DNA from: Planctomycetia bacterium
GTDB taxonomy: Bacteria; Planctomycetota; Planctomycetia; Gemmatales; HRBIN36
Direction of reading: 5' to 3'
DNA: 64,000 nucleotides
NCBI GenBank assembly: GCA_016795155.1
Contig: JAEUIE010000003.1
Location: 1-64,000, forward strand
Numbering within the stretch: position 1 is the stretch's first letter; each line of letters starts with the position of its first letter. Under the pieces are notes generated by a model, which had not been told where the DNA came from, did no database searches, and saw only the letters and a program-made list of their open reading frames with translations. A program made the translations under genes and the position numbers. Below, piece after piece: positions 38,888 to 40,567 of the stretch.

Positions 38888-40567
38888 TTACATTTCTCCA
38901 ACGCCTTCTTCAGCCAGGTTTTTCAGTTTGAGCAGGCCGCGTGCTTCGATCTGTCGCACTCGTTCCTTGGTAATTCCTTCACGCTGTCCGACCTGTTCCA
39001 GAGTCATACCACGTTCGCCGTTGATGCCATAACGTAGTTGCATGATCCGTCTTTCCCGGTCGTCCAGACGATCCAGAAGTTCATGTACCTGCCTTTTCTT
39101 GCTTTCGGCAGTAATCATTTCCCGCTGCTCATCCGTGCGATTATCTGCCACTCCATCGAATATTTCGTCGGAACCGGTCAGGAATCGATCCCGTTTGGTC
39201 TTTTCGTCTGGCAGACTCCGAGCATAGTTTTTCATGATAGCCCAAGAGGCATAAGTTGAGAACTTATTGCCCCGGCTGTAATCAAACTTCTCAACAGCTT
39301 TAATCAGGCTGAGATTGCCATCAGATAGAAGTTCATAGAAGTTATCCGTGGGCCGAGCATGTTTTTTGGCAATGGAAGCAACCAGGCGCATGTTGGCATT
39401 GATCAATTGATCCTTCACCTTTTGTGCCTGCTTGAGCAGTTCTTCCAGGCGATCCATGTCGGATGCTCGTGCCTTGTCTGGATCAATACTCTTCTGTAAC
39501 TGGCTTGCCTGATGTTTCAGGAAATTCATCTTGCGGAAAAGATGTTGTTCCTGTTCCTTTGAAAGCAATGGAGTTGAATACAGGGGAAGCAACTCGGCAG
39601 GTACGCCTGCATGGTTCTGAGCCAAGAGCTTAGCCTGAGCGAGCTGATATTCTGCCTGCTGAGGCATATTGCCCAGAATTTCAGATGCCTTTTTGGCATT
39701 TGCCTGTTCCAATTCCGGTGAGCTTATGTACGAGACTGGCTCCTTCAACAGGCGATGAGCACGTACTTCATTGACGATTCGCAAAACCGCAGTTCTGGTT
39801 CGCTGGAACTTGCTGGCCAGTGCTTCCACAGAGATGCCCCGTCGGAAGGAACTATAAATAGCTGAACGATCATCATCCTTGATCTGGGCTCGCTGCTGTG
39901 GAAAAACCTGATCAGGCTGAGTTTGATCATGACGTTTGATCGTGTAGCGCACCGCTTCGACCGAGCGACCAAACTTCTTGGCTACTCGTCGGCAGATATC
40001 CATGAAGCGGTTTGGATTAGCTTTGGCCAATCGGCGAGCACGATTCAGGATGGCTGAACGTTCTTCATCGGACATTTGTGAAAAGCGAGCGCCTTTTTCG
40101 ACATCGTCCTTGTGCTGTTCCAGGAACCGGCTCAGCAGAGATTGTCGAACAGCAACTTTGCGACGACCGTTGCATAGAACCTTGCGAGTCACCAGACCTT
40201 TATCACGCCAGCGACTGACAGTCTTAGTGGAAACTTTGAGATTCTTGCTGACTTGGTCTAACGTCAACATCGGTTCGGAGAGATTATCCGCCGGTACTGG
40301 TGGAACCGTTTCGTTGAGATCTTCAATGAACAGATGCAGATCGTGTTCAAGTTCGGCACTGTCAATGAGCAATTGAGGATTGGCATCCGTTCGGAAACCG
40401 GTGATGCGGAAGCAAACGTATTGATAGGGGTATTGCTTGCCGGGAATGATTTCCGTCAGGAGTTTTTCAATGCGGTCGAGTTGTCCCAGCCGTTTTTCAA
40501 CAGGTGCAAAACGTACCTGCTGATCTTTCAGTTGTCGAAGTGCAGGATGTCGATAGTCCTTCATCAT
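38888..40567 (-). CDS. Sigma-70 family factor with long N-terminal helix-turn-helix extension
   Basis: This 559-residue protein ends with a complete sigma-70 core. Region 2 is seen in [20 protein letters not shown] and [17 protein letters not shown]; region 4 in [20 protein letters not shown] near the C-terminus. The first ~330 residues are not sigma regions 1.1-1.2. They include a MerR/excisionase-like helix-turn-helix at about 100-135 ([20 protein letters not shown], then KGLVTRKVL) and two further possible helix-turn-helix segments ([39 protein letters not shown]). Such extended sigma factors occur in planctomycetes. It may recognise a dedicated promoter class; the target is unknown. It is not next to an anti-sigma gene. 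Confidence 0.88.
   Translation of the reverse strand: [559 protein letters not shown]

Follow-up and report, generated by a model that had tools for sequence, protein, structure and literature searches.

Sigma-70 factors in the broad sense carry regions 2 and 4. In groups 1-3, region 3 lies between these two; groups 1-2 also have region 1.2, and ECF factors (group 4) possess regions 2 and 4 only, with region 4 of the r4_2 type. Residues of region 2.4 and region 4.2 contact the promoter, and domain 3 of RpoD touches the extended -10 element. For the planctomycete Planctopirus limnophila, one study describes the housekeeping sigma factor as essential (PMC10632474).

The window analysed here, the whole stretch of 64,000 nucleotides, encodes on its minus strand a 559-aa sigma factor that starts with ATG in the ORF list. 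An N-terminal domain and three helix-turn-helix motifs (HTHs) are placed ahead of a sigma core that has no region 3. The parts of the gene and its divergent neighbour are listed below, with the sources for each.

38888..40567, minus strand: whole gene, a region-3-less sigma-70 factor of 559 aa with an N-terminal domain and three HTHs (ORF, Pfam, AlphaFold model, class genomes)
40277..40567, minus strand: N-terminal domain (N-domain), residues 1-97, with helices 8-20, 23-39, 48-56 and 70-85 and strands 45-47 and 67-69 (models; common to the HTH-less sigma proteins of L199 and L200, see below)
40112..40276, minus strand: HTH1, a MerR/Xis-like winged HTH, residues 98-152 (Pfam, model, conservation, Foldseek)
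39920..40081, minus strand: HTH2, three helices, residues 163-216 (model, conservation, structure match 2rn7)
39740..39892, minus strand: HTH3, three helices, residues 226-276 (HTH_38 below cut-off, model, generic HTH structure matches)
39608..39739, minus strand: linker, residues 277-320 (ortholog alignment); its start, read together with the last part of HTH3 (RA..LL...I.FI..P.F), recurs by eye in stand-alone sigma genes
39500..39607, minus strand: sigma region 1.2, residues about 321-356 (model, match to SigA 9fok)
39203..39415, minus strand: sigma region 2, residues 385-455 (Pfam, ortholog conservation, RpoD alignment)
39116..39202, minus strand: short linker replacing region 3, residues 456-484 (model, RpoD alignment)
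38912..39115, minus strand: sigma region 4, residues 485-552 (Pfam, RpoD alignment)
41035..42408, plus strand: divergent neighbour, a 457-aa protein (ORF list)

Both sigma regions are found by Pfam above their cut-offs, Sigma70_r2 at residues 388-445 (6.9e-12, 45.4 bits) and Sigma70_r4 at residues 497-549 (7e-20, 70.7 bits), which bears out the original prediction of a sigma-70 factor. No row for region 3 is present in the Pfam scan of the protein. An excisionase/MerR-like motif had been predicted near the N-terminus, and HTH_23 near residue 100 exceeds its cut-off (30.8 vs. 24.6 bits). HTH_17 and MerR_1 at the same position and HTH_38 at residues 228-263 all stay below their own cut-offs; in the winged HTH region 98-152, MerR_1 reaches 19.8 bits (cut-off 21.6) and MerR 12.3 bits (cut-off 28.2). 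The extension had been described as some 330 residues ahead of region 2. About 320 residues precede region 1.2, and about 385 precede region 2 itself.

Structure prediction had been proposed as a check, and an AlphaFold2 model of the whole protein was built with 104 orthologs. All three HTHs are seen in this model (mean pLDDT 90.9), and residues 460-476 are the sole segment below 50. Residues 1-300 modelled alone adopt the same fold with a pLDDT of 92.5. HTH1 is composed of a strand (100-102), helices 103-110 and 114-122, a wing formed by strands 128-132 and 135-141, and a further helix (142-151), and the predicted excisionase/MerR-like motif is thus a modelled winged HTH. The two further HTH candidates of the prediction are three-helix HTHs in the model. 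Their helices span residues 167-183, 188-199 and 203-216 in HTH2 and residues 231-242, 247-253 and 258-275 in HTH3. Given their conservation in 105 orthologs, the three HTHs are more than a chance pattern. After residue 152, HTH2 and HTH3 fold, with no MerR-type dimerisation helix in either model.

Structural matches to the N-terminal part are generic. No Foldseek row for residues 1-300 reaches E≤0.001; the best one is BldC (6ama, E 0.17), and Xis of Tn916 (1y6u) was also matched. A VIA structure comparison of the same residues gave a best Z of 8.0, and HTH2 matches TnpE (2rn7) with a Z of 7.6 and an rmsd of 2.5 over 56 residues. The N-domain (residues 1-97) is not covered well by any Foldseek or VIA row. 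Interpreting HTH2 and HTH3 as a relocated pair of regions 3 and 4 was set aside: VIA pairs residues 163-282 with SigA regions 3-4 at a Z of about 7, but with an rmsd of about 20.

The sigma half (residues 315-559) matches RpoD/SigA structures with a Z of 14-15. Region 1.2 is present, as residues 319-456 align with SigA (9fok) at a Z of 14.4 and an rmsd of 3.8 with 137 residues aligned. The same genome encodes a separate RpoD. In the alignment with it, the pieces 376-455 and 467-550 are separated by 11 residues, compared to 69 in RpoD; 58 residues of RpoD, corresponding to region 3.0/3.1, are without counterpart. This absence was overlooked in the original prediction. By eye, the short linker is 3.2-like from residue 467 onwards, where it aligns with the last part of the RpoD linker. 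Region 4.2 is nearly RpoD-like, with KERVRQIE instead of RERVRQIE (RpoD stretch VTRERVRQIE). Region 2.4 departs from that of RpoD, KFSTYATWWIRQAITRAIA, by changes of WW to WA, Q to K, and T to A. The combination of an RpoD-like region 4.2 and an altered region 2.4 suggests a preference for an RpoD-like -35 element and an altered -10 element.

The sigma factor is found in 385 of the 397 genomes of the class at E≤1e-60, nearly always as a single match, and in 334 of the 339 better genomes (≥90% complete, ≤5% contaminated). A smaller search in 41 genomes, including the one of the window, returned a near-full-length copy in 38 and fragments in 3. The named hosts in one genome-contig scan (80 of 157 loci) are planctomycetes. 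Across 105 orthologs, the mean majority-residue fraction is 0.53 for the N-domain, 0.67 for HTH1, 0.63 for HTH2, and 0.54 for HTH3, compared to 0.62 for region 1.2 and the stretch to region 2, 0.80 for region 2, and 0.59 for region 4. HTH1 and HTH2 are thus better conserved than region 4, and in each of the three HTHs the recognition helix surpasses the domain as a whole when conservation is measured in the class set. V112, T116, R119 and R121 of HTH1 are nearly invariant and G124 and L125 invariant, as are, nearly, R201, E204 and R207 of HTH2. As no other part is as well conserved as region 2, the sigma half is under strong selection in the class of the window.

The core-gene distribution within the class also speaks against a defence-linked reading, in which the protein would belong to the MZA system as its MzaA component. 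Among the NCBIfam rows, MzaA ranks first by E-value (2.3e-44), and a PADLOC row is obtained as well (3.6e-31). The score of 152.4 bits is far from the curated NCBIfam cut-off of 800, however, and the best PADLOC stretch spans just residues 379-455, that is, region 2. Moreover, a search of 72,556 plasmid records and 50,697 phage records gave no match for residues 1-288. The defence reading, very improbable in our view, was dismissed on score and coverage, and a mobile-element origin was rejected for lack of matches in these plasmid and phage records.

The explanation favoured here, to which we give about an even chance, is that of an alternative sigma factor to which a DNA-binding array for promoter selection is fused. 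Its C-terminal half (regions 1.2, 2 and 4) would bind core RNA polymerase and read an RpoD-like -35 and an altered -10 element, domain 3 having been lost. The N-terminal array of a MerR/Xis-like winged HTH and two HTHs would bind a specific sequence adjoining the promoter or distant from it, and could thereby provide the selectivity that is otherwise given by a separate activator. In parts of the class, the sigma gene itself would be under dedicated promoters of the ECF and sigma54 types. The architecture, the missing region 3, the conservation, the separability of the modules, and the upstream elements are computational results, and binding to RNA polymerase and to DNA, promoter choice, and any physiological role are inferred. 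For this explanation speak the confident model, the RpoD/SigA-like sigma half with its altered region 2.4, the near-universal single match in the class, the conserved HTHs, and the upstream elements; against it stand the decayed and HTH-less relatives, the generic structure matches of the single HTHs, and the many upstream stretches without either named element, as described below.

To characterize the control of the sigma gene, 132 upstream stretches were collected; the chosen ortholog set accounts for 82, of which 79 are non-redundant. Related species supply several rows each, and the counts among these 79 are therefore not independent. The pattern GAAC-N16/17-CGTC, an ECF-type arrangement, occurs in 22 of them, with a Markov mean of 0.89 and no occurrence on the other strand. 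Its extended form GAAC-N16/17-CGTC-N6-9-CGTA is found in 13 (Markov mean 0.02). GGYA-N6-TTGC, the -24/-12 arrangement of sigma54 promoters, occurs in 17 (Markov mean 0.51; 0/79 on the other strand), and RCGTA[TCG]TA likewise in 17 (Markov mean 0.64; one on the other strand). The majority of upstream stretches contain neither of the named promoter elements.

In whole genomes, GAACTTT-N13/14-CGTC-N6-9-CGTA was found once each, just upstream of the sigma gene, in 12 of 13. Twelve of the 13 had been chosen because the element was already seen or expected in them, and the remaining one is the genome of the window; the backward control gave two occurrences in all across the 13. A single occurrence per genome upstream of the sigma gene indicates that, where present, the element is dedicated to this gene. 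The element was not found in the genome of the window, and in the upstream region there (40568..40827, minus strand) the ECF-type and sigma54-type patterns were both absent. Among the 40 distant upstream regions, no promoter element of the class was clearly above shuffled sequences, the bare tetramer GAAC excepted. Upstream regions of Planctomycetaceae, e.g. L053 and L123, contain the 12-bp palindrome TTCGCATGCGAA, which shares bases with the ECF-type -35 element and may be an operator.

Downstream of the sigma gene, tuf is located within 2.6 kb in 14 of the 58 loci having at least 2,600 downstream bases (15 of 68 in a first count by clustering). A tRNA cluster lies between the two genes (Thr/Tyr/Gly/Thr in 13 loci, Thr/Tyr/Gly in one), and the linked loci belong to Planctomycetales, Pirellulales, and Isosphaerales. 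This arrangement would fit a growth sigma factor for the translation machinery that drives or balances the adjoining tRNA-tuf-secE-nusG-ribosomal operon and similar genes. For R. baltica, one paper lists RB12251, a 567-aa sigma factor with a pI of 9.4, among the genes that heat, cold, and salt repress, and states in its conclusion that ribosomal genes likewise decrease (PMC2754498). Being similar in length and pI to the 13 orthologs checked (553-559 aa, pI 8.9-9.7), RB12251 is a candidate ortholog. A growth sigma factor is nevertheless unlikely: the link is missing in 44 of the 58 loci and in the window, in the loci inspected, the tuf operon is preceded by an RpoD-like promoter of its own (by eye), and the R. 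baltica protein is so far a candidate ortholog.

At the loci L085, L071, L049 and L108, the RpoD-like promoter of the tRNA-Thr/tuf operon consists, by eye, of TATATT and, some 16 bases ahead of it, a conserved box with TTG. The tRNA genes in the 40 distant loci amount to a single tRNA-Asn (flanks of about 1.4 kb). Blastp detected homologs of the divergent neighbour in flanking sequence at 21 of 68 ortholog loci, and those listed share its divergent placement. Other genes in the window encode a secreted protein whose tail, VPEPTTYALMAGVSLLAGAGYYRRRQ, is PEP-CTERM-like (37987-38811, plus strand), and a 1534-aa subtilase-like protein with, by eye, cadherin-like and FG-GAP-like repeats (43403-48007, minus strand).

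Outside the class, the modules are separable. A profile of the N-terminal half has matches in 91 of 392 genomes of the phylum, and a single-sequence query in 89. From outside the class, 40 homologs were chosen via the N-terminal half, whose presence there is by selection, and scored with custom region profiles built from the class set. Region 2 reaches at least 66 bits in 16 of the 40 and at most 20.5 bits in the other 24, compared to at least 123.7 bits in the class set; Pfam finds Sigma70_r2 in 17. Scores above 10 bits were obtained for HTH1 in 39 homologs, for the N-domain and HTH2 in 37 each, for HTH3 in 31, and for region 4 in 23. From intact to decayed distant members, the conservation of region 2 drops from 0.61 to 0.38, and that of region 4 differs as well, whereas the N-terminal half is conserved alike (decayed vs. 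intact: 0.48 vs. 0.51 in HTH1 and 0.48 vs. 0.40 in HTH2). In the tree of the N-terminal half, the decayed state needs three changes; the tree gives no direction, and loss of region 2 is the simpler reading.

Because the N-terminal half is kept in 24 of the 40 homologs although region 2 has decayed, the HTH part has a job that needs no sigma half in the same chain, and the HTHs cannot serve the same-chain sigma only. There is also an HTH-less form of 370 aa, which combines the N-domain with regions 1.2, 2 and 4 and is without region 3. It is found in two genomes of one family (G170 and G101; L199:1421-2533, plus strand, and L200:680-1792, minus strand), so that a sigma factor of this kind can exist without the HTHs. 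A profile of the sigma half matches 90 of the 392 genomes at E≤1e-38, many via stand-alone genes, whose ORFs in 20 fetched regions (L203-L222) measure 316-418 codons from stop to stop. Such a stand-alone region-3-less sigma gene is present in 22 of the 24 decayed genomes (the exceptions being G324 and G388) and in 4 of the 16 intact distant genomes (G117, G238, G260 and G097); in both counts, genomes are clustered by descent and not independent.

These observations are in line with a two-in-one regulator, ranked next after the fused-array sigma factor and less probable than not. The N-terminal array would act mainly on targets of its own, as an autoregulator or repressor that binds DNA. The role of the sigma half would be a different or dispensable one, and this half of the fused protein could decay where a second, separate sigma copy existed. 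The division of the region 2 scores, the three changes of state in the tree, the similar N-terminal conservation of decayed and intact members, and the frequency of stand-alone sigma genes in decayed genomes all agree with it; the strong conservation of region 2 in the class of the window does not. For the idea of the original prediction, a sigma factor that reads upstream DNA itself without a separate activator, the balance is mixed. The three HTHs are genuine and deeply conserved, and the RpoD-like signatures of the sigma core to which they are fused appear intact, but the HTHs outlive region 2 in distant homologs and the sigma part occurs without HTHs in two genomes. We consider the mechanism a plausible proposal.

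In a tree of the sigma half, RpoD and one other sigma factor are separated from all these forms (SH-aLRT 97), among which some fused members branch first; just two outgroup rows were included, and the tool warned of long branches. As fused members branch first, the fused form looks ancestral and the parts would have separated later, which is suggestive but not proven. A broader and more doubtful scenario is a one-chain sigma factor plus activator as a core regulator of the class. Its halves would later have split in sister lineages, the HTH array surviving as a sigma-less DNA-binding protein that may act in trans with the stand-alone region-3-less sigma. If true, sigma and activator would form a natural series, fused at one end and split at the other.

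In all nine regions L203-L211, a protein with one MerR-type HTH and a CarH/LitR-like sensor part (by eye) is encoded divergently to the stand-alone region-3-less sigma gene, for example at 1353-2297 (minus strand) and 2435-3421 (plus strand) in L203. A split HTH array plus sigma, considered from weak matches, was discarded, as these partner genes do not carry a three-HTH array; the MerR-type partner is a loose parallel only. In several decayed lineages (L164, L175, L176, L184, L186, and others), the gene is located just downstream of an mqnA-like gene (SYLNAKPL motif, by eye).

If the fused-array sigma factor works as proposed, promoter choice would extend beyond the -10 and -35 elements and separate activators to a DNA reader within the sigma factor itself, and this in a core transcription factor of bacteria whose cell biology is unusual. 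Natural deletions for telling the roles of the halves apart are available in the decayed and HTH-less relatives. The sigma factor is thus a promising lead on gene control in the little-studied planctomycetes.

No earlier description of this architecture was found in the available portions of the literature covered, which included PMC8567305, PMC2754498, PMC10632474, PMC11119718, PMC12316311, and PMC11958385 and left subscription papers and preprints mostly outside. The survey of cyanobacterial sigma factors (PMC11119718) describes extra domains at the N- or C-terminal end of the sigma core, a comparable layout; in contrast, HTHs are absent from the accessory domains named there, and the term does not occur in its main text. 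Residues 98-152 share the fold of MerR/Xis-type winged HTHs such as BldC and Tn916 Xis, at a best Foldseek E-value of only 0.17, but form one of three HTHs within a sigma factor. The stand-alone region-3-less sigma factors of planctomycetes have the same sigma half, and many keep the motif around the end of HTH3 (by eye), but they lack the N-domain and the HTHs. With RpoD/SigA, the 559-aa factor has in common regions 1.2, 2 and 4, the structural similarity of this half, and an almost unchanged region 4.2 helix. It differs by the missing region 3.0/3.1, the altered region 2.4, and the N-domain and three HTHs ahead. ECF factors likewise lack region 3, but have neither region 1.2 nor an RpoD-type region 4; here, r4_2 scores 13.6 bits, below its cut-off of 25.7 and far below Sigma70_r4. 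With regions 2 and 4, the protein is a sigma-70 factor in the broad sense, yet it belongs neither to groups 1-3, because region 3 is missing, nor to the ECF factors, because region 1.2, as in groups 1-2, is present.
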